Shown here: piece after piece, positions 2,575 through 52,500 of the stretch
Layout of the letters: every line of letters begins with the position of its first letter
How positions within the stretch are numbered: position 1 is the stretch's first letter
Source: Antedon mediterranea
Lineage: Eukaryota; Echinodermata; Crinoidea; Comatulida; Antedonidae
Assembly (NCBI RefSeq): GCF_964355755.1
Contig: NC_092671.1
Span: 6,831,001 to 6,895,000, forward strand
Reading direction: 5' to 3'
DNA: 64,000 bases
Translations under genes and position numbers: made by a program
Notes under the pieces: generated by a model
Databases searched by the model: none
What the model was told of the DNA's origin: nothing
Seen by the model: the letters and a program-made list of their open reading frames with translations, nothing else

Positions 2575-2589
2575 CCGTAGTTCCCCGGG

Positions 2590-7405: not shown

Positions 7406-7944
7406 AGTCCTCACGGAGCACACACCTTACAGCCACCTCACGGAGCACACACCTTACAGCCACTTCTTCAGAAGCAGACTAACACACTTCACACCTCACC
7501 GAGAGCATCATTGATCCTCCGCGTTCCTTATCTATACTTATAGTTGTATATTGTACTGAAGTATTATACTGAATAAATAATATATGTGTTACGACAGTCA
7601 AGCGAGTTAGAGTCTTTCATTAGTACCTCAACAACCCAAACATTATATTACAGAATGTACACGACGGCGAAAGGATGTACAGAACGTGACGATCGGGGCC
7701 TTAAGGTTGTATTCAACTTAATGTTTGATGAGTTTTAAGTCAGCCAAATTCAGAGAAATCACTCTATTTTTTTGGTGAGAAATTGACGTCGGCCTAGCTA
7801 GCTACAGTAGGCCTAGGCCCACCTCTGGCCTAATGTAAAATTATACACTGGGACTTTGCCCGGGGATATGCTTGCGTGTGAAGGTAATCGTAAAGTCGGG
7901 GGTGGGATTATACCCGAGGTGGGATTATACCCGAGGAACTACGG
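7406..7944. other. Right interior of the 5.4-kb TIR element
   Basis: Contains two direct copies of cacggagcacacaccttacag near 7413-7460 and, at the end, tandem tataatcccacc-type motifs (reverse strand) matching the left terminus. No gene is seen. Confidence 0.45.
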
Positions 7945-7946
7945 TA

Positions 7947-10282
7947 ATAATTGATATAGTGTTGAGAACTGATCGATTATGAAAAAATAATGAAGAATAT
8001 CGATTCAGAACTTCTTTAAACAGAGGGGGGTCATTCTTTCACAGGGTGGTTGAACATTTTAGATAGGCCATGAAAACGAACCCCCCTCCAATTTCTGTGA
8101 TAATTGTATTTAAAACCAATTTTTTTTGTATTGAAAATTGACATAGTGTTGAGAACTGATAGATTATGAAAAAATAATGATGAATATCGATTCAGAACTT
8201 CTTTAAACAAAGGGGGGTCATTCCTTCACAGGGGGGTTGGAAATTTTAGATAGGCCATGAAAACGAACCCTCCTCCAATTTCTATGATATTCTGATTTAA
8301 AACCAAATTTTGTTTTATTGATATTTAACATAGTGTTGAGAACTGATCGATTATGAAAAAATAATGATGAATATCGATTCAGAACTTCTTTAAACAAAGG
8401 GGGTCATTCCTTCACAGGGGGGTTGAAAATTTTAGATAGGCCATGAAAAAGAACCCCCTCCAATTTCTATGATATTCTGATGTAAAACCAAGTTCATTTT
8501 GTTTTATTGATATTTGACATAGTGTTGAGAACTGATCGGTTATGAAAAAATAATGATGAATATCGATTCAGAACTTCTTTAAACAAAGCGGGGTCATTCC
8601 TTCACAGGGGGGTTGACAATTTTAGATAGGCCATGAAAACAAACCCCCCTGCAATTTCTATGATATTCTGATTTAAAACCAAATTCATTTTGTATTAATA
8701 ATTGACATAGTGTTGAGAACTGATCGATTATGAAAAAATAATGAAGAATATCGATTCAGAACTTCTTTAAACAGAGGGGGGTCATTCTTTCACAGGGGGG
8801 TTGAAAATTTTAGATAGGCCATGAAAACAAACCCCCTCCAATTTCTATGATATTCTGATTTAAAACCAAATTCATTTTGTATTAATAATTGACATAGTGT
8901 TGAGAACTTTGAGAACTGATCGATTATGAAAAAATAATGAAGAATATCGATTCAGAACTTCTTTAAACAGAGGGGGGTCATTCTTTCACAGGGGGGTTGA
9001 ACATTTTAGATAGGCCATGAAAACGAACCCCCCTCCAATTTCTATGATATTCTGATTTAAAACCAAATTCATTTTGTATTAATAATTGACATAGTGTTGA
9101 GAACTGATCGATTATGAAAAAATAATGAAGAATATCGATTCAGAACTTCTTTAAACAGAGGGGGGTCATTCCTTCACAGGGGGGTTGAACATTTTAGATA
9201 GGCCATGAAAACAAACCCCCCTCCAATTTATATGATATTCTGATTTAAAACCAAATTCATTTTGTATTAATAATTGATATAGTGTTGAGAACTGATCGAT
9301 TATGAAAAAATAATGAAGAATATCGATTCAGAACTTCTTTAAACAGAGGGGGGTCATTCTTTCACAGGGGGGTTGAACATTTTAGATAGGCCATGAAAAC
9401 GAACCCCCCTCCAATTTCTGTGATAATTGTATTTAAAACCAATTTTTTTTGTATTGAAAATTGACATAGTGTTGAGAACTGATAGATTATGAAAAAATAA
9501 TGATGAATATCGATTCAGAACTTCTTTAAACAAAGGGGGGTCATTCCTTCACAGGGGGGTTGGAAATTTTAGATAGGCCATGAAAACGAACCCCCCTCCA
9601 ATTTCTATGATATTCTGATTTAAAACCAAATTTTGTTTTATTGATATTTGACATAGTGTTGAGAACTGATCGATTATGAAAAAATAATGATGAATATCGA
9701 TTCAGAACTTCTTTAAACAAAGGGGGTCATTCCTTCACAGGGGGGTTGAAAATTTTAGATAGGCCATGAAAAAGAACCCCCTCCAATTTCTATGATATTC
9801 TGATGTAAAACCAAGTTCATTTTGTTTTATTGATATTTGACATAGTGTTGAGAACTGATCGATTATGAAAAAATAATGATGAATATCGATTCAGAACTTC
9901 TTTAAACAAAGGGGGGTCATTCCTTCACAGGGGGGTTGAACATTTTAGATAGGCCATGAAAAGAAACCCCCCTCCAATTTCTATGATATTCTGATTTAAA
10001 ACCAAATTCATTTTGTATTAATAATTGACATAGTGTTGAGAACTGATCGATTATGAAAAAATAATGAAGAATATCGATTCAGAATTTCTTTAAACAGAGG
10101 GGGACTTTCTTTCACAGGGGGGTTGAAAATGTTAGATAGGCCATGAAAACGAACGCCACTCCAATTTCTATGATATTCAAAACCAAATTTTGTTTGATAT
10201 TTGACATAGTGCTGAGAACTGATCGATTATGAAAAAATAATGATGAAAATCGATTCAGAACTTTTTTAAACAGAAGGTACCA
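7947..10282. repeat. About 190-bp satellite, right block
   Basis: About twelve more tandem copies of the unit described for the left block. Positions of the gatcgatta word step by roughly 185-200 bp, one unit near 8900 carrying a short internal duplication of gagaact. Every unit keeps a C-run followed by tccaatttct and a G-run before gttgaa. The last unit decays at about 10280. The minus open frame at 10112-10306 is a by-product of the repeat. Confidence 0.92.
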
Positions 10283-11357
10283 AGGTGGGGGGAGGGGGGA
10301 AGACATTCTTTCTATGAAAATTGTATTATTATTATTGCGACATAAAAAAATAAAATTATGATTATAAAAAAGGCCCTCGTAATATCCATGTTTATTTATT
10401 TTTTGTTTTTAGATAACTATGTGGTTCTGCTATAAGAGATGGGAGAGGGTCAGTCAAAAGAGAAGGGAGGTGTTGAGGGGGGGGGGGTAACTTTCACGGG
10501 GGGGTTGAAAGTTTTAGCTTAGCTAAAATTTTCAACCTCCCCTCCAAGCCAGCGAAGATCAGTGAAGCGTGTAATCGTTGAATAAACATGAAAAACTCCC
10601 TTTTCGCGCATGCGTTGTTAAGGGGGGGTTGAGAATTATGGGGAGGTTGGATTTCTTAGAACAACGCCATTAATTTCGGTTATGTTACCTAGCTAGGCCT
10701 AGGCCTATTATATTGATGAGATATGGCTTTGACCTGTTGTACCTTAATTTAATCATTTACTAAGTATTAGTATTAATAATTCATTGTTAAAGTTACTGCA
10801 TTGCATTAAGCACCTGGATACTATAGTTATGATAATCTTCGCAAAACTTTATAGCTCATGTGATCATTTTAATTGATTTACGTATAGCTGTACAATGTCA
10901 ATGGCATGTAGGTGTCGCGTCGTTGTTGTAGGAGGAGGAGAGTTAACCGCAAGGATTTTGTTATCGCTTGCTATGACGACACGGTTTTGCATTTTTAATT
11001 AGTTTAAGGGATCGTCTTTTATATTGTTTGTTTTAACTTAAATACAAAACTTTTCAGTTTGACGCTTAAGGAGCCACATATATTGCTAGACATGCATTTA
11101 TAGGTCATTGTTATGTTTTGTTTTAGTAATCTGGTTCACATTCAAGAAACAGGAATAAAGGAGCACCTTGGGTGTTGGACTTGAATAACGAATATATCAC
11201 TCGCATTATTTTTAGGGCAGTTACAGTAAGTAATATTCAATCTTAGTTGTTCACGTGTTTAATCAACAACTATTAATTGTCATTACCAGCCATGAATGAA
11301 GACATTATTATAAAATCACTTAAGTCACACAGAATTAATATTACTTTTTTTAAATAA
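10283..11357. other. Non-coding stretch upstream of TRIM-A
   Basis: About 10498-10545 is a near-palindrome centred on gttttagcttagctaaaa with arms sharing the ggttgaaa word of the satellite, perhaps a related element. From 10700 on it is unremarkable AT-rich DNA. A good donor-like gtaagt lies at about 11225, a possible 5' non-coding exon end for TRIM-A, unproven. Confidence 0.4.
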
Positions 11358-11360
11358 TAG

Positions 11361-12050
11361 ATGGCATCTAAATCAAGTTTGTTTGAAGATGCAGATAAAG
11401 ATTTCTTAACCTGCTCCATCTGTAAAGAAATCTTCAGTCATCCAAAGCAGCTGAAGTGTATGCACAACTTCTGTCAAGATTGCTTAGATCCTCTATTACA
11501 AGAGGGAACGCCATCCAAGATCAAGTGTCCTCTTTGTCGAGAAGAGGTTGAATTGGAGGTAAACACGGTTTCTGAGCTGGAAGATAATATTTTTCTGAGC
11601 AATTTATGTGACCTCTTTGTCGTTGCTAACATCAACAATGTTGATATCTTTTGCTCTTTTTGCTCTGAAGCATTGAGAGAAGAAAATGCCTCTCGGTGTA
11701 TCGATTGTTCTGATAACCTCTGTGATAAGTGTGCAAAAACCCACACGCTTACCCGCTTAACAAGAAATCACCAAGTCATATTAATGTCGGAGCTTGAGAC
11801 GGGAACCCTTGTGAAGAAAGCAAGAGAGGGAAACATCAAGACTCCGTGTCAGAAACATCCCAACAACCATTTGGAGTACTTCTGCCAAACCTGCCAAGTA
11901 CCTGTATGTCTTGGATGCACTGTTGTAGATCATGTGCGTCAGAGTGGTCATAACCTCTTGAACCTACAGGATCATTCAACCAGAGACGCATATAAGGAAA
12001 AGATAACTGAACAAATAACAAAAATGGAAAAACTGATGCCTTTATTTTAA
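11361..12050 (+). CDS. TRIM-A residual open frame: RING and two B-boxes
   Basis: 229 residues. The RING is C3HC4 (CSICKEIF, CMHNFCQDC, CPLCRE). B-box 1 starts near CSFCSEAL and ends near the HTLTRLTRNHQV stretch. B-box 2 is CQKHPNNHLEYFCQTC through HVRQSGH. The frame stops where the coiled coil should begin. If expressed, it would be a RING/B-box fragment lacking the oligomerising coiled coil and substrate domains. Such truncations can be inert or act as competitors; nothing here decides it. Confidence 0.5.
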   Translation: MASKSSLFEDADKDFLTCSICKEIFSHPKQLKCMHNFCQDCLDPLLQEGTPSKIKCPLCREEVELEVNTVSELEDNIFLSNLCDLFVVANINNVDIFCSFCSEALREENASRCIDCSDNLCDKCAKTHTLTRLTRNHQVILMSELETGTLVKKAREGNIKTPCQKHPNNHLEYFCQTCQVPVCLGCTVVDHVRQSGHNLLNLQDHSTRDAYKEKITEQITKMEKLMPLF

Positions 12051-12810
12051 AAAAACATTAAAATTGCAGATGAAACTGAAAGAAATCTCATTGAAAGTCT
12101 GCAAAAAACCAAAAAGGATATTCAAGAAACTGCAAAAGGGCTTATTGAAGAAATCAAGACGCATGCAAATTCACTGATTGAGAAAGTCAATGAAAAAGCT
12201 GAAGCTATCCATAAAAAAGTTGAACATCACAGAGAAGCTGCTGAAATCAGAGTCATGAGTGCCACTAGTCTCAACAAGTTTGCTACAAATCTCTACAAAC
12301 ATGGTTTAAATGCTGAAATAATGTTATCGGCAAAAGATCTTCTGAGAAGAATGAGTGAGTTACAACAAGAGATGAAGGATCTTGCAGAATCTGGAGAATT
12401 ACGATTTATTAAGGAAAAAGAGTTCAAATTAGGAAAAGTTGAAGAATGCATGATTCAGGTTGAGTATTGGAATCAATATCATATTTTGAAATTTGACGCA
12501 ACAACCTTTAATCCTACAAAATGCACTGAATCACTTAAATTACACCCCAACAATGAGTTTGTGTCATTTTATTTTACTAAGGAAGAGTGACATATTTGGG
12601 AATAATTAATATCAGAAGACAGTAACACTATTATGAATCAAACACAAATTTATCTTCATGAACCTGAATACCTGAATAAAAATTGCATTCAGTTATTTTA
12701 AAAATAATATATCCGCTAACTGGAACAATGTACAATGTGTTAAGTAATATGCAGACTTTCACTGGATTGTGTTATAATGTTTATATACTTAATTCTTTTC
12801 ATTCTTTTAG

Positions 12811-13080
12811 AATCGTGAGAAAAATATGTTGACAATGTATGCTAAAACTGACATGGCAGTTGGTTATTAAGTTAAAAGAGGTCCAAATTGGCCAGCAGGT
12901 TATGACAACTATGATAATAATGGACAATATCCACATAACACAATCCAGACAATTCAACGGAATGGTTGGAATGATATTCAAGTTCAAGTAAACTTTCCAA
13001 GCGTGGGTGTAAACCTTGATTGTAAAATGAATTCTGACGAATATTGGATACAGCCAACACAAATACATGGAAATTACCAG
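12811..13080 (+). pseudogene. TRIM-A exon 2: MIB/HERC2-like domain 1 with internal stop
   Basis: Bounded by acceptor cttttag and donor gtattg, phase 0 at both ends, 90 codons. It aligns along its length with TRIM-B exon 2 (RGPNWPAGYDNYDNNGQ), but VGHQ is changed to VGY-stop. Confidence 0.7.
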
Positions 13081-13549
13081 GTATTGTAAAATCATTATTA
13101 GTAGCAAAACCCTTTCAAAAACATTTGCCAAACATTAGGTGTACTTTGTTTTTTTTATGGTTTTTTTGCAAATAAGGTATACCTGCAACAGGTATTTTTC
13201 TAAATTTCTGAGCGATTAATTTGTTTTAAATTGGTTTGATCTCTAGAAAAGAACTTTATAAGCCTACATTGGAGAAGTCACTACCAGTGTAATCATCGTT
13301 ATTAAAATCAAGGCTTTGATAGCCACACGAAAAGACCTGATGATCAATATAGTCATTGAGTGTATGTCACACTTATAGCAATTGTGACAACTATTATTAA
13401 ATATTATAACAATATAATAACAGGAGTTGTGTTATAAAACAAATAGTTAATATTTGTAACTCAAACATTCATTATTTGTATTGTATTTTAGTCGTAAGTG
13501 GCGTCATTGTATTTCACTTTTCGTTGTAATCACATTTAGTTTGCTTTAG

Positions 13550-13786
13550 ATTTGTCTAGATTACTATGTAAAGAATGTCATGGCGATTGGAGATGAGGTA
13601 AAAAGAGGACTACATTGGCCTACTTCATGGATGAACAAAGACGACAAGGGGCAGAAGTCTGGAAAAATCAAGGAAATCAACATAAATAATGGCAATGCAA
13701 CTGCAGTTGTTGAGTTTGGTCCACCGCCAAACGACGCCATACAATGCCCAATGTATCCTGGCGCTTATTATCTTTTGCCACTTTGA
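13550..13786 (+). CDS. TRIM-A exon 3: MIB/HERC2-like domain 2
   Basis: Acceptor gctttag at 13543-13549, phase 0. The domain reads IGDEVKRGLHWPTSW, then MNKDDKGQKSGKIKEI, VVEFG and a terminal YYLLPL. This is the MIB/HERC2 pattern of G-x-x-V-x-RG-x-x-W, a D-x-G block, G-x-I-x-x-I and a closing aromatic/leucine strand. It ends at a TGA where copy B has CGA. Confidence 0.65.
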   Translation: MCLDYYVKNVMAIGDEVKRGLHWPTSWMNKDDKGQKSGKIKEININNGNATAVVEFGPPPNDAIQCPMYPGAYYLLPL

Positions 13787-15459
13787 CCATTTTCGATTAT
13801 AAAATGGGTCGAATTCTAGCTCCAAAAGCATAAATATAATGAATGAGTTGTTATTATATGGATGACTCCAATTTTTGATTAACCATAAAAAAATAGACTG
13901 ACATTGTGACATAATAATAATATTATAGGTTAACTGTAAATGTAATATACTGTAAGCAAATAATAATCAAATGTTAAGTGTGGCGCGGTATTGGCGGACT
14001 AGCTATTTCATTTAAGGGTAGGAGGTATTATATTGAAATACGTAATCATCTCTCTTAATTTTTATTTAAATTATCTAAAAGTATGATAATTAACATTTAT
14101 AGTGGGATAGAGTGACTTTGCTTACTCCCTACTGAATGCATGTGATGGATGTTAGAGTATCATACTACAGTAATAAATATAAAAGTTTATATCTTTGTAA
14201 GATTCAACTTTTTGTAGGTTTTACATTACTGTGTAATTTATAGTTTACTGTACATAGCTTTAGGTCATTACTTAATTGTTGATACTATTAGGATTCACAC
14301 TTTCATTAATTCAAGCAATGTTCTTAAATTAAACAGTTAAGATTAGGTTAGAAATGTTTAAGTAGAGCAAATTGTAGTTAATTTACCCCCTCGTTAGAAG
14401 TAGTAATAATCCTTAACTGTTAAATTAGCACAGGGATATTTTAGATTCAATCTACCCTGAGTAGATTGCCAAGTTACAGAGGAAGTGATACTGTATATAT
14501 GAATAGCTTGTTTCTTGTACAATTGCTGAGTTTGATTTTAATTTGTTTTGCTTGATATAATAATACAGTAGTAGCACCAAGAAGGAAAAAATAAACGTTT
14601 TCTCTATTGTAGAACGTACAGAGCGTATATTTAAATCATCCTTATTTCTTTATTTTAAACCGAGTTGCATTTTGGGCTGGGGCATGTCCCTCTCACAGAA
14701 TTTCTCATTGTTATCGTTTATTATTATTTCCGCATCCCATATGTGCTAAGTGTACAGAAGATAGTGCTGTGCTGGAATTGCTATTTATTCAGACTTTTTA
14801 TAAAATATCTGCATAGAGTATCTCACAAAGACCGGGTGAAGAGATAGATATATTCGTCTGCTCGAAGTTCAATTATTTATATCTATTGAGCCTAACTTTT
14901 ATTGTTTAAATATTAACCAATACAATTTAAAAATAACAAGAGGTTATCCGCCAAGTGCGGATAACCAATTAACGCCTATGTAATCAGTATCATGTTTGTA
15001 TTAGTGATAAATGCTAAGAGTTTACAGTTTTGGTCTGATAAATAATCAGTTGGAAAATCCAAGTAGAAGAAGACGTACATACATCAATCAACTGCCTTAA
15101 TATTGGTGATCTTTATTTGGTATAATTATTTCTGTTTTCCATACCACACTTATACACAAAGTAAGTATGATAATTTCCTACCGTTTATTTGTATATATTC
15201 AATTTCTTGTTGATTTCTTTTTAAACTAGAAGGGCACTCAAAGAGCGCAAATATCCGTCTAGGCATATGGGAGTTGAATCACCTCTTCCCATACACCTAT
15301 GAAACCGTCATTTAAAATCTTTAATAACTATTTGAGAAATCCTGGTAACAAATATAGAAACCTCATAGCCTCTCGCTATTCTGGCGTAGGTAACAACGTA
15401 ACTCTTATTGTTTCATAAAGTTAGTATTGTCAATGCATTTTATAATATATATTTAATAG
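13787..15459. other. Intergenic DNA between TRIM-A and TRIM-B
   Basis: AT-rich, no supported gene. A short inverted pair (aggttatccgcc / gcggataacc) lies at about 14941-14966. The 60-codon frame at 14665-14847 has no recognisable similarity. Confidence 0.5.
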
Positions 15460-15843
15460 ATGGCGTCAGAATCGAGTTTATTTGAAGATGCAGATAAAGA
15501 TTTCTTAACTTGCTCCATCTGTAAAGAAATCTTCAACCACCCAAAGCAACTGAAGTGTATGCATAACTTCTGTCAAGATTGCTTAGATCCTCTATTACAA
15601 AAGGGAAAGCCATCCAAGATCAAGTGTCCTCTTTGTCGAGAAGAGGTTGAGTTGGAGGTAGACACCGTTTCGGAGCTGGAAGATAATATTTTTCTGAGTA
15701 ATTTATGTGACCTCTTTGTCGTTGCTAACATCAACACTGTTGATATATTGTGCTCTTTTTGCTCTGAAGCATTGAAAGAAGAAAATGCCTCTCGTTGTAT
15801 CGATTGTTCTGATAACCTCTGTGATAAGTGTAAGTCATTTTAA
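15460..15843 (+). CDS. TRIM-B fragment: RING and broken B-box 1
   Basis: 127 residues: intact C3HC4 RING (CSICKEIF, CMHNFCQDC, CPLCREE) followed by the first half of B-box 1 (CSFCSEALKEENASRC). It terminates just after the deletion junction with a short foreign tail (KSF). Confidence 0.55.
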   Translation: MASESSLFEDADKDFLTCSICKEIFNHPKQLKCMHNFCQDCLDPLLQKGKPSKIKCPLCREEVELEVDTVSELEDNIFLSNLCDLFVVANINTVDILCSFCSEALKEENASRCIDCSDNLCDKCKSF

Positions 15844-16529
15844 TGTCGGAGCTTGAGACGGGAACCCTTGTGAAGAAAGCAAGAGAGAGAAACATCAAGA
15901 CTCCTTGTCAGAAACATCCCAACAACCATTTGGAGTACTTCTGCCAAACTTGCCAAGTACCTGTCTGTCTTGGATGCACTGTTGTAGATCATGTGCGTCA
16001 GAGTGGCCATAACCTCTTGAACCTACAGGATCATTCAACCAGAGACGAATTCAAGGAAAAGATAACTGAACAAATAACAAAAATGGAAAAACTGATGCCT
16101 TCATTTGAAAAAAACATCAAAATTGCAGATGACACCGAAAGAAATCTCATTGAAAGTCTTGAAAGAACCAAAAAGGATATTCAAGAAACTGCAAAAGGGC
16201 TTATTGAAGAAATCAAGACGCATGCAAATTCATTGATTGAGAAAGTCAATGAAAAAGCTGAAGCTATCCAGAAAAAAGTTGAACATCACAGAGAAGCTGC
16301 TGAAATCAGAGTTATGAGTGCCACTAGTCTTAACAGGTTTGCTACAAATCTCTGCAAACATGGTTTAAATGCTGAAATAATGTCATCGGCAAAAGATCTG
16401 CTGAGAAGAATGAGTGAATTACAACAAGAGATGAAGGATCTTGCAGAATCTGGAGAATTACGATTCATTAAGGAAAAAGAGTTCAAATTAGGAAAAGTTG
16501 AAGAATGCATGATTCAGGTTGAGTATTGA
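15843..16529 (+). CDS. TRIM-B fragment: B-box 2 and coiled coil
   Basis: 228 residues in a different frame from the RING part. B-box 2 (CQKHPNNHLEYFCQTC to HVRQSGH) is complete with its Cys/His ligands. The rest is a long charged coiled coil (about residues 65-215) rich in Glu, Lys and Ala, ending at a TGA. As separate translation it would lack the RING. Confidence 0.5.
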   Translation: MSELETGTLVKKARERNIKTPCQKHPNNHLEYFCQTCQVPVCLGCTVVDHVRQSGHNLLNLQDHSTRDEFKEKITEQITKMEKLMPSFEKNIKIADDTERNLIESLERTKKDIQETAKGLIEEIKTHANSLIEKVNEKAEAIQKKVEHHREAAEIRVMSATSLNRFATNLCKHGLNAEIMSSAKDLLRRMSELQQEMKDLAESGELRFIKEKEFKLGKVEECMIQVEY

Positions 16530-16871
16530 AATCAATATCATATTTTAAAATTTGACTCAACAACCTTTAATCCTATAAAATGCACTGAATCACTTAAATT
16601 AAACCCCCAAAAAGAGTTCGTGTCATTTTATTTTAATAGGAAAGAGTGAAATATTTGGGAATAATTAATATCAGACGACAGTAACAATTATGAGTCAAAC
16701 ACAAATTTATTTAGGTCTTCATGAACATGAACACCTGAATAAAAATTGCATTCAGTTATTAAAAAAAAAATGTATCCGCTAACTGGAACAATGCACAATG
16801 TGTTAAGTAATATGCAGACTTTCACTAAGTGGATTGTGTTATAATGTTTATACTTGTTTTCATTGTTTTAG

Positions 16872-17144
16872 AATCGTGAGGAAAAACACATGTTGACAAG
16901 ATATGCTGAAACTGACATGGCAGTTGGTCATCAAGTTAAAAGAGGTCCAAATTGGCCAGCAGGTTATGACAACTATGATAATAATGGACAGTATCCACAT
17001 AACACAATCCAGACAATTAAACGGAATGGTCCGAATGATATTCAAGTTCAAATAAACTTTCCAAACTGTCGTGCAAACCTTGATTGTAAAATGAATTCTG
17101 ACGACTATTGGATACAGCCAACACAACTATATGGAAATTATCAG
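16872..17144 (+). CDS. TRIM-B exon 2: MIB/HERC2-like domain 1
   Basis: 91 codons, phase 0 at both ends, between acceptor tgttttag and donor gtacaa. It keeps the domain pattern: VGHQVKRGPNWPAGYDNYD, then a TIQTIKR turn, VQINF and a terminal YWIQP. The match to MIB/HERC2 is by pattern only and is more divergent than domain 2. Confidence 0.65.
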
Positions 17145-17474
17145 GTACAATCTATAAAATCATTATTACTTGACAAAATACATATTTATATAATGGATTT
17201 GGTTGTTTGCAAGATTGTTTTGTAAAAAAAGGTCATTTAGTCAACTTTTATTTTTATTTTTTAAGATTTTGAAATGCCGGAGTAATATTAATTACAATTA
17301 TTATATACCGTAATTATAAATATTATTTATAGGCCTTATAAATGAATAATACCATTTTAGAAACTTCAATAAGTAGGTAATGATGATAATACAATAATTA
17401 TGTTAAAGTTATAAAAGAATGTGCTTGTATTACATTTCCATGATTATTTCATAAACATCTTATCATTTTTGTAG

Positions 17475-17744
17475 ACATTTCTTCACTGCTATGTTAAGAA
17501 TATCATGGCGATTGGAGATGAGGTAAAGAGAGGAATGCATTGGCCTCCTTCGTGGATGAACCAAGACGACAAGGGGCAGAAGTCTGGAAAAATCAAGGAA
17601 ATCATCATAGATAATGGCAATGTAACTGCAGTTGTTGAGTTTGGCCCACCGCCAAACGACGCCATTCAATGTCCAATGTATAATGGCGCTTACTACCTTT
17701 TGCCCCTTCGACCATTTGCGATGTTAACATGGGTTGAATTCTAG
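17475..17744 (+). CDS. TRIM-B exon 3: MIB/HERC2-like domain 2
   Basis: Acceptor ttttgtag at 17467-17474, phase 0, stop TAG at 17742-17744. It contains IGDEVKRGMHWPPSW, DDKGQKSGKIKEI, VVEFG and YYLLPLRPF. It is the clearest MIB/HERC2-type sequence in the window and, in this copy, ends at its natural stop. Confidence 0.7.
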   Translation, partial: TFLHCYVKNIMAIGDEVKRGMHWPPSWMNQDDKGQKSGKIKEIIIDNGNVTAVVEFGPPPNDAIQCPMYNGAYYLLPLRPFAMLTWVEF

Positions 17745-20472: not shown

Positions 20473-20961
20473 AAATTAGAGATCTCAATGAGATCCAAAT
20501 TGACAATTGCCGCAAAATCCTCACTGAGTTTGACGTTGAAATTCACTCTAGAACTAAGAAGTTGAAAAGAGAACTTCCTGCATCCTAGTTTCAAAACAAA
20601 TTCAGGATTATCGCCAATGACTGCCGTAAACAATCAACGGTAATGGCCCGAAGGGAACATCACAAATTTGGTCTACCATGCAGACTTGGTCATTTCAACA
20701 CAAATGACTCTACCTTCGGATGACTTCAGGGCTTTTAGGAAACCCTGCAGAAGGTTCGTTTGGACATATAACAAGAATCAGAGCAACACCTCTGATTCAG
20801 TTGTTGAAATTAATTGTCGACTTTCCGAAGGAGAGAAAAAACTTCCTTCCCGAGGACTTAAATTCTGCCCAAAACCAAGGCAGGTCGGCGCACAACAACT
20901 ATCTTTGGATATAGAGTCTTTTTCTAGAAGATTACGATTACGTGATTATTTTGCTGATTAA
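20473..20961 (+). pseudogene. Penelope-like ORF, N-terminal fragment
   Basis: Frames open in turn encode an N-terminal charged stretch, an FGLPCRLGHFN segment, and the conserved pre-RT motif VVEINCRLSEGEKKL followed by GLKFCPKPR and FSRRLRLRDYF (frame of 20668-20961). These are characteristic of the N-terminal region of Penelope-like polyproteins. At least one stop and frameshifts interrupt it. Confidence 0.65.
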
Positions 20962-21019
20962 GGCAGCAGCACCACGCAAAACGAAGGCAACGTTAACAAA
21001 TTTAAACCAAAAAGTTCCT

Positions 21020-21660
21020 GGAATCCACCTAAAAATCTTTGTCCAGCTTTAGAAACATTTTATCCAGGCTATTGAGGAGGATGTACAAAACTACGTCCCG
21101 AGTCCAGATAAACGTGACAATCTCAAAACAAGAGAGGCAGGCCATTGCCAAATTGCGTCAGCGTAATGATATCATCATTAAACCCGCTGATAAAGGTTCT
21201 GCCACTGTTGCTATGGACATCAAATTTTATTAAGAGGAATCCTTAAGACAGCTTCATTATATATCATAAACTCACAACGGAACCCACCCCGGAAATTGCG
21301 GATAAGGTGGCAAAATCTGTTTCTGTGATGGTAAAAAAAAACACTTCATCGATCCTAAGATTTACAGTTACCAAATCCACTAGTAGCGTTGATTTTGTGG
21401 ACACTATAGTGACCATAGAAAATGGTACTCTCAAAACTGACCTATTCCGTAAATCCACTGATAAAAATATGTACCTGCTCCCTAGCAGTTGTCATCCCCA
21501 ACATTGTACTAAAAACATACCGAACAGTAAAGCATTACCTATCAGACGTATCTGTTCTTCAGATTTAGATTTTCAGAATCGTACCGAAGAACTAACCGGA
21601 CATCTCCGGAGTAGAAATTACAAACCTATCAACCTAGGTTGCCTCCATTACGGGGCTATT
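21020..21660 (+). pseudogene. Penelope-like ORF, RT flanks with the catalytic core deleted
   Basis: An upstream piece encodes ERQAIAKLRQRNDIIIKPAD followed by KGSA, the entry to the Penelope RT domain. Soon after, at about 21300, the sequence joins to SVDFVDTIVTIENGTLKTDL, LLPSSCHPQHCTKNIP and RRICSS. These lie after the catalytic YADD region in intact elements. No palm motifs exist between them, so several hundred bases of RT core are absent. This copy cannot reverse transcribe. Confidence 0.7.
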
Positions 21661-22265
21661 CATTTATTGAGAAACATATGCCCATTCTAAAGTCCACAGA
21701 ACGTCTCAGGACTGTTTTTCCGGAACCACCCATTATTGCATTTCGTAGACCTCCCAACCTTCGTGATATATTAGTCAGATCCAAATGTAAGAGTGAAATT
21801 AACTCTCATGACAGTCAAAATTTGGGCAGTCACCTTTGCGGCAAATCTTGCAAAACTTGTTCATTGGTTGATTCTACTGAAAAATTTAAGAGTAACCAAA
21901 CTGGCCGCATTTTTCGGATAAGACAATCAATTAATTGTCTAACCAAAAACGTCATTTATCTCAATATTTGTGGCAAACAGTACGTCGGAGAAACAAAAAA
22001 CACTCTCCGTATGAGAATGACACAACACAGATCAGCTATCAACACATTAAAGCTTGTTCAACCTGTAGCCGAACATTTTAATTCATCTGGTCACTCGATA
22101 ACAAATTTCAGAGTTATTGCAATATTCCATGTGTCAAATGGAGCGACAAAACTTGCAAAGACAAGGAAAACCACTGGGAATTACAACTTAAAACCACAAA
22201 ACCTTTTGTACTTAACATTAGAAACATACTCCCAGGTTGGTAAAATTATTCTATTGTCTACCTAA
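21639..22265 (+). pseudogene. Penelope-like GIY-YIG endonuclease fragment
   Basis: 208 codons. A cysteine cluster reading CGKSCKTC (about residues 68-75) is followed by the GIY-YIG-type core NVIYLNICGKQYVGET (about residues 103-118), LRMRMTQHRS and PVAEHFNSSGHS. This matches the endonuclease that follows RT in canonical Penelope-like elements and makes the nick for target-primed synthesis. The GIY-YIG signature is altered (VIYLN...QYVG), as is common in the class. The C-terminus is frameshifted near 22150. Confidence 0.75.
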
Positions 22266-28971: not shown

Positions 28972-30063
28972 ATGGAAACACAAATGAGTGAGTTCTTTCA
29001 AGACGTAAATAAAGATTTCTTGACCTGCTCCATATGTAAAGAAGTCTTCAACCACCCAAAGCAACTGAAGTGCATGCACAACTTCTGTCAAGATTGTTTA
29101 AAGCCTCTATTGCAGAAGGGAACTCCATCCAAGATTAAGTGTCCACTATGTCGCGAAGAAATCGAGTTGTTAGTTGACTCGGTTTCAGCGCTAGAAGATA
29201 ATGTGTTTCTCAGAAATTCATGTGAAGTGTTTATGACTGCTCACCTCGACACAGCTGATGTTTTGTGCTCGTTTTGCTCCAATGTGTTAGAGGAAACAAA
29301 CACTTCCCGCTGCATTGAATGTGCTGACAACCTCTGTGCAACATGTGCAGGAACTCATAAGTTAACACGTATAACACGCAATCACCAGGTTATCCAAATA
29401 TCAGAGGTTGGAAAAGAAAACCTTGTGAAGATGTCGAGAGAAGGAAGTACCAAGACACCATGTCAGAAACATCCAAGTAATCATTTGGAATTTTTCTGCC
29501 AAACATGTCAAGTTCCCGTATGTTTTGCGTGTACTGTTGTAGATCATGGGCATAAAAATGGCCACGATCTGAAAGATCTACATGATGCCCCGACCATCAA
29601 AACCTTCAAAGACCAGATAATTGAGCACATTCGTCAACTCACAGAAGTAACAGAAACATTCAAAGAACACATTACCTTTGCAGATAATGCTGAAGAACGT
29701 CTCATCTTGAGTCTTGAAACGACAAAGAAAGATATTAAAGATTCTTCAAAAGCTCTTATTGCAGAGATAGCAGCTTATACAAATAGATTGATTACGAAAG
29801 TTGATAAAAGAGCTGAAACTATCCAGAAAACAATTGAACATCACCGAGATGCTGCTGAAGTCAAAATTCAAAGCTGCAATAGCATCAATCAGTTTGCTTT
29901 AAATATATGCAAGCATGGACTTAATGCTGAGATAATGTCATCTGCTAAAGACCTACTGAAGAGGATGGACGATCTGCAAGAGGACTTAGATGACATTGGC
30001 ACTGGCGAATTAAAATTCATACCAGAACCGAAGTTTAGACTTGGAAACGTACAAGAATGCAAG
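28972..30063 (+). CDS. TRIM-C exon: RING, B-boxes and coiled coil
   Basis: 364 codons up to the gtaggt donor; without splicing the frame would run to a stop at 30099. It is about three-quarters identical in the domain cores to TRIM-A/B by eye (for example HPKQLKCMHNFCQDCL is shared). Substitutions are spread along the length, so C diverged well before A and B split. Confidence 0.9.
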
Positions 30064-32434
30064 GTAGGTATACAGTTTAAAGCTAAGGTACAGGCATGAA
30101 TTTTAAATATAATATTTGGTTAATTATACATAAATCAAATATTTGTAACAGAAATCGAGACGAAAAAACATGAATTTCCCTTAATATGGTCAAATACAAA
30201 ATTTGGGAAAATTCTTCCATAAAAAACAGAAAGACTTTTTTTCAGTAGTTAGGTAGTTAACCTAATGTAATAACATGTCTGGTGACCCCCCAGACGGTGA
30301 AAAAAGATGGTGGATATACAGTGGATAATTTTTGCTATAGCATGAAAATAAAAAGCTGAAGTTGAATAAAAATATCAGAAATGTAATATTCAAGTTATAT
30401 TACCTATATTTAGTCATCTGATAACATTTTTTACCACACCGTTTAATTTTCATAGCTTTTTAAAATGCCTCTCTATTTACAAAATTTGTGTACAAAAGAA
30501 TAGAGATTTTACTGTGTAATTTGAACTATCCCCCCACTTATAAGAAAGTGCTTATTTTCAACAAGCTTGTGTAACACAAATAAAATCCCAAAAATTATGA
30601 AACATAGGGGAAACTATAGATCGATAATTATTGGAATGTATGATCAATAGAAATTTTTTGCCTGCACCTGGCCTTTAAATGCATATTTTAAAGGTTCGCA
30701 TAGCAAATAAACACGCAGGTAAAGTTAGTTAGTTTCCAACTAGATATAAAGGTTGCCTGAGACGTCTTGAATTTTCTCCACAAAAAGACGGTTGTTGCAT
30801 AAACACCAAAATGTCGAGACACACACAACCTTAATTTCACCAGAAGGAAGTTACTTGGAATTGACATTGACAAAACATTAGTTGGGTGGTTGGAACATAT
30901 TATAAAGGTAAAATTGTTAAATCGGTTTCATCGATGTTGGTTGTGAACTGAATAAAATTTTAAAAAATAAAAAGAAAGGGAAAATATAATACATAAAACA
31001 AACACGGAAAGATACGCACGTGTAACATAAAAAAAGAAGAAACACAAGGTACAACATTTTGACAAACCAAAATACAGAAAGAATAACCCTCTCTGTTACA
31101 CACGCTATTCTTTCCCGCGTTTTGTTCTTTCTGTTTTTGTGCTTTGACTTTGTGTACGATTTTCATTGCAGAAACGATTTTGTTCTTTTACGTTCTTTTT
31201 TATTTCATAATGCAAAAAAACAGGAACACAAGGAGTACACTTTGTTGGATTATTATACTAAGAAGGAGATGAAGGTTGGTGACGCCGTAAAACTTGGCCC
31301 AGACTTTCCAGTTGGTGATCCATATGACCGTTATAGAGGAAGGCATTCGAACGGCACAATCCAGAAGATCAAAAGAAATGGTCAAACAAAAATGGTCATG
31401 GTCATGTTTCAAAATGGATCAACACTAGAATGCAAAATGAACCGGAACGAGAAATGGTTACAGCCTGCAAAGCCATCTGAACTGTATATGGTAATGTAAA
31501 TTATTTTATTTGATTCTCCGTCTAAATGCATCAGTCTAAATCTCTGTCTACACTATCAAATTTTATTTGACAAAAATGTGATGTGCCCATATATGGACAT
31601 GATGATGTCATATCATATACCATATTTGGGCACATCACTTTTTGTTTGTCAAACTAGTTTGAAAGTGTAGACATAGCTTTAATTGGAGTACTTTTGACAC
31701 ATGAATTACTAGATTCATCCAGAAGTATAACTTCCTTAATAGGTGTATAACTTATAAACTATCTCTTTATAGCCCATAAGCTTGGTTCCCACTAGAGACG
31801 AAACGCAAGAACGGTTGCACTGGACCTGGAATCGTTGATTGTAGAGAGACGGAACGCAATGACGTAACGCAAGACAAGAGAGTTGACCAATGACGATCAG
31901 CGATTGTTCGAATAATCTATCGCTTCTGATTTGTCAAATCATTTGCGTTGCGTTACGTCCTTGCGTTGCATTTCTAATTTGATTCAAGCTTTACGTTGCG
32001 TTTAACGTCTCTGAGAACCAAGCATAGAGAAAGGAACACCATTTTTATTCTATACTCTTGTACGATAATTGTGTTTAAAAATGACATGTAGGCCTACTTT
32101 CTTTTTACACCAATGTTCTTACATTCACCAGAATCGATTAAAATGGTATGCTGATAAAGTGATGAAGGTTGGTGACCGTGTTCATCGAGGCGTTCATTGG
32201 CCATCTGGATATGACAGTTACGATAATTATGGAAAATCGGGAGAAATCACAGATATTAAGCGGGATTCTTGTCAAACAAAAGTTGTTGTTAACTTTAATT
32301 GTTGTCAAAAAAATGATGCCCCTCCTTTAAAATTGTCACGAAGCAATGACAATTATAAATTTTCAATGTATGAAGGTTGTTACTCGCTTTTACCCTTGCA
32401 ACCAATTTTTTGGAGTGAATGGCTTGACATTTAA
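28972..32434 (+). CDS. TRIM-C: RING-Bbox1-Bbox2-coiled coil-MIB/HERC2 x2 E3 ligase candidate
   Basis: Three coding exons, all phase 0: 28972-30063 (donor AAG/gtaggt), 31224-31490 (acceptor cag, donor gtaatg) and 32132-32434 (acceptor accag, stop TAA). Together they give about 553 residues. A tctag acceptor abuts the ATG, so at least one 5' non-coding exon is expected. RING C3HC4: C19, C22, C34, H36, C39, C42, C57, C60. B-box 1 is at about 95-140, B-box 2 at about 162-200 and the coiled coil at about 205-345. MIB/HERC2-like domains are at about 380-445 (VGDAVKLGPDFP) and 465-545 (VGDRVHRGVHWPSGYDSYD). RING/B-box proteins are generally ubiquitin E3 ligases that dimerise through the coiled coil, with the C-terminal module choosing substrates. 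Here that module would be the paired MIB/HERC2-like domains. Unlike A and B, no frame is broken. Splicing is inferred from motifs and conserved phase. Confidence 0.8.
31224..31490 (+). CDS. TRIM-C exon 2: MIB/HERC2-like domain 1
   Basis: 89 codons. It reads EHKEYTLLDYYTKKEMKVGD, then LGPDFPVGDPYDRYRG, IQKIKRNG, VMVMFQNGS and KWLQP. It aligns with exon 2 of TRIM-A and B, including the GTIQ(K/T)IKRNG turn. Confidence 0.75.
31539..31677. repeat. MITE family M2, copy 1 (TRIM-C intron 2)
   Basis: Imperfect hairpin of about 140 bp: tctgtctacactatcaaa at the left, agtttgaaagtgtagaca at the right, and gatgtgcccatatatgga / tatttgggcacatcac inside. Other copies: 58507-58646, 59171-59304 and 63636-63789. 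Confidence 0.8.
31780..32023. repeat. MITE family M1, copy 1 (TRIM-C intron 2)
   Basis: gcttggttcccactagagac at the left and gtctctgagaaccaagc at the right, with cgttgcgttacgtcc-type inner repeats. This longer variant (244 bp) belongs to the family seen at 38248, 39982, 40225 and 51301. Confidence 0.75.
32132..32434 (+). CDS. TRIM-C exon 3: MIB/HERC2-like domain 2 and C-terminus
   Basis: 100 codons plus stop. NRLKWYADKVMKVGDRVHRG leads into HWPSGYDSYDNYGKSGEI, then VVVNF, and ends in CYSLLPLQPIFWSEWLDI. It parallels exon 3 of TRIM-B, which ends LLPLRPFAMLTWVEF. Confidence 0.75.
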   Translation, partial: NRLKWYADKVMKVGDRVHRGVHWPSGYDSYDNYGKSGEITDIKRDSCQTKVVVNFNCCQKNDAPPLKLSRSNDNYKFSMYEGCYSLLPLQPIFWSEWLDI

Positions 32435-35200: not shown

Positions 35201-36147
35201 AAAAATGTTTGTTTTATTTTTATCATAAAAACTAGTTAAACAAGATTCAACTGTAAATTATGTATATGGTACAGCAGGCTGGCTGTATTTTCGGATTGAT
35301 GGCCTAGCCTAGGCCAGTCTATGAAGAGTACAATGTATAGGGCCTAGCTGGGCATTTTCTGCAGAGACCCGATTGTCCCAGCAGCCTGCCTCCTCTACTA
35401 CTACTACTACTAGCCTAGGCCTAATGCATGTATTATTCTAGGCCTAGCCCTGAAAAAATCCCAGGCTAAGTTAATTAATTACCTTCCTGTTATTACAAAC
35501 GTCTGTCTAGTTTGCGTTATATATATAATTATTATATTTAAAATAACCGTCTAGGCCTACTTACCGACAAATTAACAGCTTAGCTTTACATACGATCAGG
35601 GGAAACCCCCAGTCGAGTCGCGTCGATCTCTGTGGGTGTTGTACACAACGTGCATCATCCATGTTTGTTAGATCAGATCCCAGCTGTGTCGATGCTCATT
35701 AACATATCATGCATATTTATGAGTTAGCTCTATCGGCCTAAATTTTGAGCTGACAAGTTGGGAAAATTGATTAACTTATTTTGCTTTTTTCTTAGCGAAA
35801 TTAATAATTTTTTTCGGATTTTTTTTCGGCGAAAGTGAACAACTTTATTATAGCTACAATATGGTCTATTCAAAATTTGATTTAATTGATCTTCATTTTT
35901 CATGTTTTGGGGGACAATACAACTTTAAGCAAACTTTTTATTCTGGAGGCCTCTTTTGGTTTATACCACCGCACACACACAACAAACACACGACACGCGA
36001 TAAAACCGGTAAGGTCGATCAAAGTACACAGCTAGGCCTAGCTTGACTAAATACAAAATACACAAAACAAACGTTGTAACTGTACTGTACTGCTACTACT
36101 ACTAGTAGGTAATTAACTCTGGGTTTAGCGAAGTTGAAGGTATTAAA

Positions 36148-39100
36148 ATGAGCTCAGTTGAAGAAGCAACAATATTTACGGATGGAGAAAATTGCAAGCC
36201 CGCATGGTCGGAAGCCATGGCATGCTTCAGTGGAAGCGGGAATACACACCTTGAAATCATGGGAAAACCTGTAATGGAGCGATGGGAAACAGATTTTATG
36301 CACAAACTAGCCGACATCGCTAGCTCTAAAGGTAAGCCTAAGAATTATTATTTGGATTTTTCATCTTGTTCTAGATCTAGGCCTGGCAGCCCTAATTAGT
36401 ATTGAAAACCAAATCGTAGTTTAGTAATAACTTAAAGAGTAGGCCAATGCCTAGCTAGCTTGTTTGGACACTGGCCAATTTGAACACGCATATGCCATAA
36501 TAAATTTATATTTATATACTGAAAACAATGTATACTCATTCTGCATAGGCCTATGCTAAATGTGTATGATTAATATTAAATTGTTTTTGAGGCCTCATTG
36601 TTTATATATGATGATCATGTTTAATACTTTAGTTAGAACAACAACATAATTTTAAGGTAAAAATCTCCTTCCATCTGTCCTGCCTGCAGCCTGCCTATAA
36701 TATTAATAATATGTACACAATGTCTTTTGCAGGTGGAAAGGTTCTTGAAATAGGGTTTGGACTTGCAATAGCAGCGACAAGAGTCGAAGAGCACTCGGTA
36801 GATGAACATGTGATCATTGAATGCAATGATGGCGTATTCAAAAACCTGGAAGAGTGGGCTAAAGGTCAACCAAACAAGATCACTCCTTTAAAGGGAATGT
36901 GGGAAGATGTTGCTCCAACCTTACCAGATGGCACATTTGATGGTAAATGACACGGTTCCAGTGTGGGATGAGGGAACAATTACTTATGCAGCTGGCGTGA
37001 CCTTAATATTTGTGAAATTCTGTTCTTTGTGCTGATAGAGTACTTTTTACCACTCTTTGGCACTGCTTTTTTTTATGACATTTTGTTTAGTGGTTCTGTT
37101 ACAGCTTCTACTACTACCCTCACCCTGCAAGAGCTGCTGGTTTTGTGATGTGTGTGAAATTGTGTATTAATAATTATGTAGGCCTACTGTTACTGCCTTC
37201 TAGCTGTTTACCACCCTTTAGCTGCTGGTTTTGTGGCGTGTGTGTGTCTGTTGTTTTACCACTCTGCTAGCTACCTAGTACCTAGCTACTGCTTAAATTG
37301 TGACTTGTGAAAAGGTACAGTAATGAGATATATGCTTGTTGGTTGAGACATGGAAACTTCATACCTAATTTATCAATATTATAATACAGTAGTATTGGTA
37401 AAATACCATATGGTTGAAACGTGTAGAATTATAATAAAATGATTATTAAATAATATCAATTGTAATTGACGGTAGTACTTACGAATTATATAAGTTAAAG
37501 ATTTGCATAGCTTATCTATAAGTATAGGCCTATTACATGGTTACACATTTCGATCACTTTCACCATTTGGCATATTAAAAACAATTTTTAAATATTTTGA
37601 AATTATAATAAAATACCAGTGATAGGCCTACTGGTGAATGCCCAGCAGAAGGGATAAGATAATTATTTGTGATCACAATTATCATGATGAAGATGATGTG
37701 ACCAAAGCTGTACCCGAGGTTTAGAATTTTTTAGAGAAACGTAGACTATTAATGTCGATTATTATTACACGAGTCTTCTTTACAATTATGAAAAATAAGA
37801 TCTGAAATAATATGAATGTAGATAGGCCTACGGCGCGTAGAAAGTTCTATAGCAAAATGTTTGATATACTGAAAACTTGCAACCTAATAAATGAGTCATC
37901 CATCATGAGTCACCTGCCTTTTTTAATGGGCCTAACTGTAAAGGTTGAAAGTATTGAGTAGAAAGAAGAATTAGTTTGTGAAACTAAAAGACCTTTGTTG
38001 ATGATTTTTCCAAGAGAGTTGTTACGAGGTACCTATCTGGTGTTGTTAATTTAAATGTGTGTAAACTGTACTACTTGTTCTTTTGCATGCTGCTAGTTGG
38101 GAAAAGTGTTTGATTCGTGAGATTCCATTCTTTTTAATGACTCAAAGTCGATGTTCATAATTTTCTTTGTTGTATATTTTTTATAGGTGTACATACATAT
38201 TTACATAATAGCTTATTTTACGCCATATAATCCGGCCTTTTCCTTAAGCTTGGTTCCCACTAGCGACGCAACGTAACGCAATCTACGCAACGTAAGAAAA
38301 TGCCCTTCCGATAATTGTGTTTTTCCCCGCTTGCGTGAAATCAAACCTGTGATGTTTGCAGCACTGTTGCGTCGTTGGTTCCCACGCAATTATTACGCAA
38401 TACAGCACTTTGCGTCAATACGTCGAAGCTTTGCGTAACGTTGCGTCGCTAGTGGGAACCACGCTTTAGCAATACGCTTATGAAATCATATTTTTTGTTG
38501 TATTAAGGTATACTGTATGATACATATCCGTTATCAGAGGAAACGTGGCATACACATCAATTCATGTTTATCAAACAACATGCCTTTCGACTTCTAAAGC
38601 CAGGCGGCGTTCTAGCATTCTGCAATTTAACATCATGGGGTGAGCTTTTAAAGACAAAATACACCAATGATGAAAAAATGTTTGAGGTGAGAGAAACTAT
38701 TTCCCTTTCAAACCTTCTAAATAATTTCGTTAACTTACCAAAAAGGGAGCAAACTCAACTTTAGATATTAACCGATTGGTCGCAATATGCTTCGTCAAGA
38801 AATTTGTATTGCAAATGCATTGGATCTAGTTCAGTCGTCATATATACGATATGAGACGTCATTTATTGTGCGTTTAAATTGTCGCCGCCCAATTTTGTCG
38901 ATTCTAAAGCCTGTTTTCCTGTCGACGTTATTCGATGCTATCGTTAACAATAATCGGCAATCTTCTACGTAAACATTGAAATGTTAACGATTTACAGGAA
39001 AAGGTACTCGCTATCGTTATCATTTCAACTTGATCGTTTTCAAACGATCGTCGTTGAACTGTAAACGATCAACGACGATAGCGTCGAATAACGTCGACAG

Positions 39101-49500: not shown

Positions 49501-52500
49501 ATCACATCTAGGGAGGCCTAATAACAAATGAGGGCGCTATGTATGCATAGTTTAAATAGTTTAGTTGATTAATTTCTTCAAGCAAGTACCGTGGCGCAGC
49601 GCATTAAACGTTGTCTTGTGATGGAGTGACAATTTCATCGCGAGTTCAAGACCCAGTAGTTGACTTTTGTTTAGTTATCGACAAACGCGAGTGTTGCCAC
49701 ACGAAAATTACACAGTCAATATCATCGTACTCGAGAATTTTCTGGATTTTATATGTTTAATGACAGGGGACACGATAATTACGCGAAAATTACTCAGTCA
49801 ATATCATCGTACTCGAGGATATATACGATTTACGATCCTTGCAGCGGTAGTCATGTGATGCAGTTTCAACCAATCACGTTCACGTATTTAATATATATAT
49901 AATACTCAATTATTTTTTTTCAGGCATTTTAAACTCAGGATGAAAAGGGATGCTCCAATGTTCTCTAAAAATCTAGTGGTTGAAAGTAGTGAAGGAACAC
50001 GAAGGTATACTCCAGATCATATATATGTAGGATTATTAGAAGGTAAGGATCTACGTCACCCCCTATGCTTCAAAAGGAAGGTGGCTTTCATTTCAATAAG
50101 TAAATGGAAATTAATGGAAACACAAAAAAACGGGAACAGACAAAACAGTATACTGTATGATACTAGGACATACTGACCTTCAATATCTAGCAGCTACTGT
50201 ACATAGATTCATTGGGATAGATTCATCTTGACCCCTCTTAAAAATACCCAAAATAAAATGTCACGCTTTGTACAGTATTTAGTTTCAAGGCTTATCCAAA
50301 TTAATATAGATTTTAATTTTAAGTTGGCAGACATTTTTGTCCACTGGTGGTACTGATGCAGGTAAAATTAGCATCCCATTCATATACAGTATGGCCTATA
50401 ACTGCAGTATTCCCATAAATAATGTGTGCTTTATTCCTATAGTATGTCTATAATAGCTATGTGTTTACCCGTGGGAACACTACAATTACTTGCATTAATT
50501 TACTCGCACAAGAACTGTATAGTCATTTTCTAAAAGACACATTTATTATTCAAATAATATACATTAATACAATAATTGCCTAGTGACCCGTTCGATAAAG
50601 TGACCTGACCATCACTCTCTAAAACAAATGAGGTCTGCTGTAATAAGTGAGCATTATAAATTGAGCTAAGCACTGCTCTGATTTGTAAACAAAATGACAG
50701 GTTCTTGTTCCGTCAAGAATAGTGGAGATTATTATCCTTGTTTAATATTTTGTTTTTTTATCACATTTTTTCAGATGATCCTAGTAGCAGCTGTCATGGT
50801 TCAATAATCAATGATACATTCCGCGGTAGGATAAAAACAGGGAATGATGAGTATTACATAGAACCAGCTCATCGCTATTTTGATACCGAAACAAACTTTC
50901 ATTCTGTAATATATATGGGCAAGCATGTGGAGCCACCGTCAGAGTTATTTGGATGTGGGGCCAAGGACCAAATACACACTCGCATGCAAGATTTCCTAGC
51001 AGAGAATTATAAGGCACAATCTGTAAGATTCTATTTCAAATGTCTATTTGTTGGGTGGTCAAGTTTGTTATTTCCCCCATGCTTGCAAACATAATTATTT
51101 TAAGAAAATTTAAGTTTTTTGTGTTTTGAGAGTAGGAGAAACATAAGAAACATAATAATAAGACTGATCCACAAAAAAATGGTTTTGTTATAAATCTGTC
51201 CTAAATTGTGTAATAAGTTTTAAATAATACTGTAAGTGTACAAACTGTAAGCTACAGAAGAGCCTCACCCCTCACAACTCCTTTGGACACTCTTGTCATA
51301 GCGTGGTTCCCACTAGAACGTAATGCAAGGACGTAAACGCAACGCAAGCGTTTAAACCAATGACAAGCGAAGTTATAGACAGTTAACAATCACAAGTGAA
51401 TAAGCCATCGCTTGTGATTGGTCAATTCACTTGCGTTGCGTTACGTCCTTGCGTTGCGTCGCTAGTGGAAACAACGCTTAAGGGGACAGTAATAATACAA
51501 TCTAGAGCATCATTTCTTCTGAAAAATAATACAATTATATAAGATAATAAAAGATAAACAAACCCAAATGTAACAAATATATATTTAGAATGATTTTACT
51601 TTGTTATTTATTTTAGGTTTTTGATGAAAATGAAGAATCTCCTTCAGAGAAGTATTCCTCCTCACAACGTCATAAACGAGCGACAGTCAATTACAACAAC
51701 AAAGGCTGTACTTTGTATCTTCAAGCTGATCATACATACACCGCGCTCTTTAACAATGATGAGAACGAGGTGATCGCCGAGCTCCATGACCATGTCACGG
51801 CTGTAAACAGTATTTACGAAAACACACGCTTTGGTGAATGGGGCAACGGCATCGGATTTGAAGTGGATAGGATACGTATCAACGGCACTCAAGAAGAAAA
51901 CGACCCATCAAACCCGTTTGGAATGAACAATATCGGTGTCGAGAAATTTCTCGAATTGAATTCGTTACAAAACCATAACGATTATTGTCTCGCGTACGTA
52001 TTTGCTAATCGTGATTTCAATGACGGAGTTCTTGGGTTGGCATGGGTTGGATCTGCTGGTGGAACCTCTGGTGGTATTTGCGAAGATTTTAAGAAGTTTA
52101 CTGGTGGATCTCAAAGTCTTAACACGGGTATTGTGACGGTTAAGAACTATGGCCAAAGGGTTCCGTCAAAAGTCTCTCACATCACGTTTGCACACGAACT
52201 CGGACATAACTTTGGATCTCCAGTAAGTATGGTAGTAATAATTGTAGTCTACTACTCAATATTATTTTTCAGTACTACTGTATTGCCATAAGATTTGTCA
52301 CTACATTTTAAATTATCATACACTATTAAATAATAATAAATTTAATTTATAAAGCGCTTCATAATGACAGAAACAAACTCTAAGCGCTGTTCATAAAAAT
52401 AACATAAACATCTGGTCAGCTTAATCTAAAGCAATCAATACCAACAATTTAAAAATTACACAACAAAAAAAAGACATAATAATATACAAACGAGAACAGT

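Follow-up and report, generated by a model that had tools for sequence, protein, structure and literature searches.

A 64-kb window of Antedon mediterranea DNA (the whole stretch analysed) raises the question of what kind of ubiquitin ligase is encoded at 28972-32434, where a TRIM-type exon is followed by two exons resembling the MIB/HERC2 domain. TRIM proteins are classified by their C-terminal substrate reader, and MIB/HERC2 domains are otherwise known from the Mind bomb, HERC2 and HECTD1 ligases. We consider with good confidence that the locus is a real three-exon gene, the product of which would be a TRIM-type E3 ubiquitin ligase with a RING, two B-boxes, a helical/coiled-coil region and two divergent MIB/HERC2-type barrels. 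This gene, here named copy C, is the only one with intact frames among three copies in the window, the others being copy A (11361-13819) and copy B (15460-17744).

The three-exon gene and its neighbouring copies

The anatomy of copy C is established, and all three exons lie on the forward strand. Exon 1 (28972..30063, 364 aa; assigned from Pfam and splice sites) carries the RING (aa 19-60), B-box 1 (about aa 98-140), B-box 2 (aa 161-201) and a helical/coiled-coil region; exon 2 (31224..31490, 89 aa; alignment and model) carries a leading helix and barrel a, and exon 3 (32132..32434, 100 aa and the stop) a leading helix, barrel b and the C-terminus. The ATG at 28972 starts a 375-codon frame (28972-30099), in which the donor AAG/GTAGGT follows codon 364 in phase 0. 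Both junctions, 30063/31224 and 31490/32132, have GT/AG sites and keep phase 0, and the predicted spliced product is 553 aa long. The sequence TTTCTAG abuts the ATG of copy C and an AG is found immediately 5' of the ATG in copies A, B and C (11361, 15460 and 28972; ...ATAG/ATGG, ...CTAG/ATGG), which suggests that in all three a 5'-UTR intron runs up to the start codon.

A reading of the letters without database searches (the sequence-only reading) had described exon 1 as an intact RING-B-box-B-box-coiled coil exon. The ATG, the RING (zf-RING_UBOX 37.5 bits, zf-C3HC4 32.4 bits) and the B-boxes (zf-B_box 36.7 bits, two stretches) bear this out, both domain types being over the Pfam cut-off, whereas the coiled-coil region gave weak helical Pfam matches and stayed below threshold (TRIM_CC 10.4 bits, cut-off 30). 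Residues 9-335 align with other RBCC proteins of the genome and, among solved structures in the PDB, the RING is closest to those of TRIM2, TRIM3 and TRIM56. A search of the genome (354 Mb, 18 contigs) with the TRIM exon yielded more than 100 other RBCC places, none outside the cluster exceeding 34% identity and the best-scoring reaching 29%. In a tree, copies A, B and C group together (100/100) on a long branch, which joins a set of long RBCC proteins (99/94) at a point where long branches meet and placement is unsure; one of these proteins, L013, has NHL repeats by Pfam. Judged from these comparisons, the RBCC part is nearest to the TRIM-NHL (TRIM2/3/56) class, and the Pfam scan of the three exons of copy C gave no NHL match. 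Near-intronless TRIM genes of ~730 aa, many with an NHL-like end, were seen in large tandem clusters on contigs 1, 2, 3, 7 and 9, and a scan of viral contigs found no relative.

Copies A and B, also on the forward strand, share exon order, phase 0 and GT/AG junctions with copy C. Copy A is disabled by a TAA at 12048-12050 in the coiled-coil region of its TRIM exon (11361..12458), and further stops are found in MIB-like exon 2 (12811..13080; TAA at 12868-12870) and exon 3 (13550..13819; TGA at 13784-13786, 11 codons early). In copy B the deletion of 40 nt at 15831/15832, within B-box 1, shifts the frame of the TRIM exon (15460..16517) and disables the copy, while its MIB-like exon 2 (16872..17144) is open and exon 3 (17475..17744) is an open frame with its stop, followed after about 70 nt by AATAAA. 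Over the TRIM exon A and B share 95% identity, and the loss of their frames is recent; copy C is ~60% identical to A/B over this exon and 41-45% over the MIB exons. Across copies, exons 2 and 3 are each most similar to their own counterparts, which indicates that the domain doubling predates the gene duplication.

The recurrence of this exon order in two neighbouring paralogues had been taken in the sequence-only reading as a sign that the linkage is not accidental. Order and phases do recur, but neither neighbour is a working gene, given the three premature stops of A and the 40-nt deletion of B, and tandem duplication copies linkage, together with everything else, in the absence of any selection. 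The recurrence was therefore rejected as proof of function, and the argument for linkage was moved to dN/dS across the older split. Between copy C and A/B, dN/dS was ~0.2 in the TRIM exon and ~0.25-0.41 in the MIB exons where estimable, with bootstrap upper limits <1, values which are rough because dS is near saturation and A-C exon 3 was not estimable. Purifying selection has thus acted on all three exons across this split. That the whole tandem family is dying, copy C having no present role, would agree with the disabling of A and B and with the A-B dN/dS of 0.78 in exon 2, the interval of which includes 1; it is nevertheless improbable, as copy C is open over three exons and has been under purifying selection since its separation from A/B.

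The same comparisons bear on whether an RBCC gene made of the TRIM exon alone stops at 30099 and the two MIB-like exons are part of a different gene next to it. The TRIM frame does meet a stop about 12 codons past the donor and an A-rich tract is present at the first acceptor of copy C. However, the exon order, phase 0 and the splice sites are kept in copies that have diverged to ~60% protein identity, the exon homology starts at the acceptor, and no ATG precedes the domain in the exon 2 frame. B-box 2 and the first barrel are also separated by about 180 residues, which fits the 170-220 residues usual between B-box 2 and the C-terminal domain of TRIMs (PMC2533329), and so supports the barrels as a TRIM C-terminal domain. 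We consider separate genes to be quite unlikely; the three exons are predicted to be spliced together.

Sequence and fold of the C-terminal barrels

Searched as a single sequence, exon 3 scored 18.1 bits against Pfam MIB_HERC2 (PF06701; E 0.0026), under the cut-off of 33.5, and the Pfam scan of exon 2 gave no PF06701 match. The claim that each downstream exon holds one MIB/HERC2-like domain therefore needed evidence from profiles and fold, and the barrels of copy C, scoring below the gathering threshold, are called here MIB/HERC2-type and not members of the Pfam family. Likewise, exon 3 by itself had no match up to E 10 in a phmmer search of the PDB, and a search of the genome with PF06701 returned canonical genes only, the exons of the window not being listed. 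The genome has its own MIB1, MIB2-like, HERC2-like and HECTD1-like genes, the names being given from reading of the sequences.

Alignment of five MIB-like exons from copies A-C revealed the invariant positions L-x-x-Y ... M-x-x-G-x-x-V-x-x-G, and the MIB/HERC2 signature G-x-x-V-x-R-G-x-x-W was seen in exon 3 of copy C and in copy B. Exon 2 is homologous to exon 3, and PF06701 was the only Pfam family to match more than one of the five exons. A profile of these exons, run over 2,813 six-frame frames, placed the MIB2-like, MIB1, HECTD1-like and HERC2-like domains on top, with a best E of 2.6e-4 and two canonical domains under E 0.01; the frames were from fetched loci picked to include canonical MIB domains, and the result gives a rank and not a genome-wide significance. 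Compared with aligned canonical MIB domains of the genome, the exon profile reached 91.5% and a score of 38.0 in hhalign, the highest score among 200 column shuffles being 17.9. The sole PDB sequence match of the profile was MIB1, in both its MIB/HERC2 domains, a weak match at E 0.16. Genome searches with each of four MIB-like exons recovered only the three copies of the window together with weak, chance-like matches; by this measure the genome appears to hold no further TRIM-MIB gene, with the proviso that a divergent one could have escaped.

AlphaFold models built from the window sequences alone, of middling confidence (pLDDT 74.5 for exon 2 and 72.4 for exon 3), each consisted of a helix and a five-strand barrel. 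Foldseek gave no significant E-value for either model, with Tudor-like barrels among the first matches. With a second aligner, the top three for exon 3 were HECTD1 3dkm (Z 8.0), HECTD1 2dk3 (Z 7.2) and MIB1 4xi7 (Z 6.7), and for exon 2 HECTD1 ranked first (Z 8.9) and third (Z 8.1), with PetP 2n5u between them (Z 8.4) and MIB1 fourth (Z 7.8). The comparison with Mind bomb thus placed its domain among the leading matches, behind HECTD1 in both cases. These Z values of 6.7-8.9 are close to the stated background, in which Z near 8 can occur, and SH3-like barrels are also found outside this family. The structural comparison is therefore taken as support for the sequence evidence and not as proof in its own right.

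The C-terminal domains could instead be another small SH3-like barrel of Tudor, CPH or KOW type, resembling MIB/HERC2 by fold only. In keeping with this, the Foldseek leaders were the UvrD Tudor, PetP, chromo and ribosomal barrels (E > 0.02), Tudor and CPH rows come next with the second aligner at Z 6-7, and exon 2 lacks a Pfam MIB match. Against it stand PF06701 as the sole family matched by more than one exon, the canonical MIB domains at the head of the profile ranking, the signature in exon 3 and copy B, and the homology of exon 2 to exon 3. We give this possibility a low probability; the UvrD Tudor, PetP and chromodomain matches were accordingly rejected as kin, the sequence profiles leading to MIB/HERC2 and the second aligner to HECTD1 first. 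The barrel fold and the kinship with MIB/HERC2 are regarded as established, and the earlier assignment of one such domain to each exon stands on profile ranking, hhalign and fold, while plain Pfam was sub-threshold or blank.

Relation to known ligases and proposed mode of action

TRIMs form a dimer through the coiled coil, their RINGs activate E2~ubiquitin and the C-terminal reader holds the target. If copy C behaves as other TRIMs do, its coiled coil would form an antiparallel dimer and its RING would engage E2~ubiquitin, conferring the predicted ligase activity. The tandem barrels would take the place that the NHL propeller has in the nearest relatives and bind a short peptide of the target. 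Copy C is like the TRIM-NHL proteins (class VII; TRIM2, TRIM3, TRIM56 and TRIM71 type) in its RING-B-box-B-box-coiled coil order and in a RING nearest to TRIM2/3/56, and within the genome group NHL-type proteins such as L013 stand closest to it. It differs from them in having the RBCC in one exon, followed by two MIB-type exons, and no NHL repeats in the three.

With Mind bomb (MIB1 and MIB2), copy C shares the presence of two MIB/HERC2-type domains in one E3 ligase, and its barrel b is similar to the second of the two MIB/HERC2 domains in MIB1. In contrast to Mind bomb, the three exons have no ZZ between the domains, no REP and no ankyrin repeats, and the RING is N-terminal and accompanied by B-boxes. 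HECTD1 and HERC2 are alike in the barrel fold, HECTD1 being the best structural match for both exons, while copy C has RING/TRIM chemistry rather than HECT and two domains. As to the donor of the barrels, HECTD1 and Mind bomb both fit on the models, with HECTD1 the best structural match and MIB1 next.

In the sequence-only reading the substrate reader was taken to derive from the Mind bomb type. This is not supported, HECTD1 fitting as well and the MIB-ZZ-MIB module being absent. In MIB1 it is this module that binds the N-box of Notch ligands (PMC11887331). The Pfam scan of the three exons of copy C gave no ZZ match and no ZZ finger was seen, by reading, in the intron of 641 nt that separates exon 2 from exon 3, so that N-box binding in the MIB-ZZ-MIB mode is not expected. 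A TRIM that controls Notch signalling by reading Notch-ligand tails as Mind bomb does would draw on the alignment of barrel b with the second MIB/HERC2 domain in the MIB1-Jagged1 N-box structure (25% identity, Z 6.7). Given the lack of a ZZ, the equal fit of HECTD1 and the presence in the genome of MIB1 and MIB2-like genes, we regard this as very unlikely. In Drosophila Mib2, single MIB/HERC2 domains are dispensable for muscle (PMC5345843), and the substrate therefore cannot be deduced from the domain name. Copy C is best read as a lineage-restricted TRIM ligase in which tandem MIB/HERC2-type barrels would capture the substrate.

As had been supposed from the sequence, the combination does not seem to be a standard TRIM class: in the accessible text of the surveys PMC3503706 and PMC2533329, MIB/HERC2 is not named among TRIM C-termini or classes, and few kinds of C-terminal reader are described as ever used. 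Partial coverage of the literature found no earlier description joining TRIM and MIB/HERC2; annotated proteins may exist. Branchiostoma TRIMs with two MATH domains (PMC3503706) are likewise lineage-specific with a tandem C-terminal domain gained from another family; there, however, the domain is MATH and the gene a short intronless frame. Bivalves have an expanded Mib-herc2 orthogroup (PMC8382680), and a loose use of the domain in invertebrate ligases is thus not strange. The first proposal of a new TRIM subclass correctly describes the joining of the scaffold to two MIB/HERC2-type domains, but three tandem copies in a single genome, of which two are broken, are too little for that name. That copy C represents a distinct TRIM class, kept by selection throughout one animal lineage with the tandem barrels replacing the NHL propeller as reader, is possible and on balance doubtful. 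If true, MIB-type recognition would gain a second kind of ligase. A tandem MIB/HERC2-type reader would in itself give TRIMs one more kind of substrate reader, and such domains would be seen to function outside the Mind bomb scaffold and with no ZZ finger; the two-barrel module would be a compact construct for finding peptides bound by MIB/HERC2-type domains.

Other features of the window

Upstream of the three copies the window contains a 22-nt tandem repeat (317-711), at least 17 copies of a ~188-nt satellite unit in two blocks (1628-2684 and 7939-10300) and, adjoining these, an 837-aa frame of a non-LTR retroelement that carries a reverse transcriptase domain (2541-5054, forward strand). Between copies B and C, at 20644-22265 on the forward strand, are fragments that by eye resemble a Penelope-type element with a GIY-YIG-like C-terminus; the frames 21247-21687 and 21615-22262 gave no Pfam match at E 0.001. 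Downstream of copy C, guanidinoacetate methyltransferase exons are located at 36109-38764 (forward strand), the middle exon matching solved GAMT at E 1e-31. An ADAM-type metalloprotease follows at 51617-57088 (forward strand), with a reprolysin exon and a sub-threshold disintegrin exon, and a second, facing gene with, by reading, a similar cysteine-rich stretch is present at 62949-63999 on the reverse strand.
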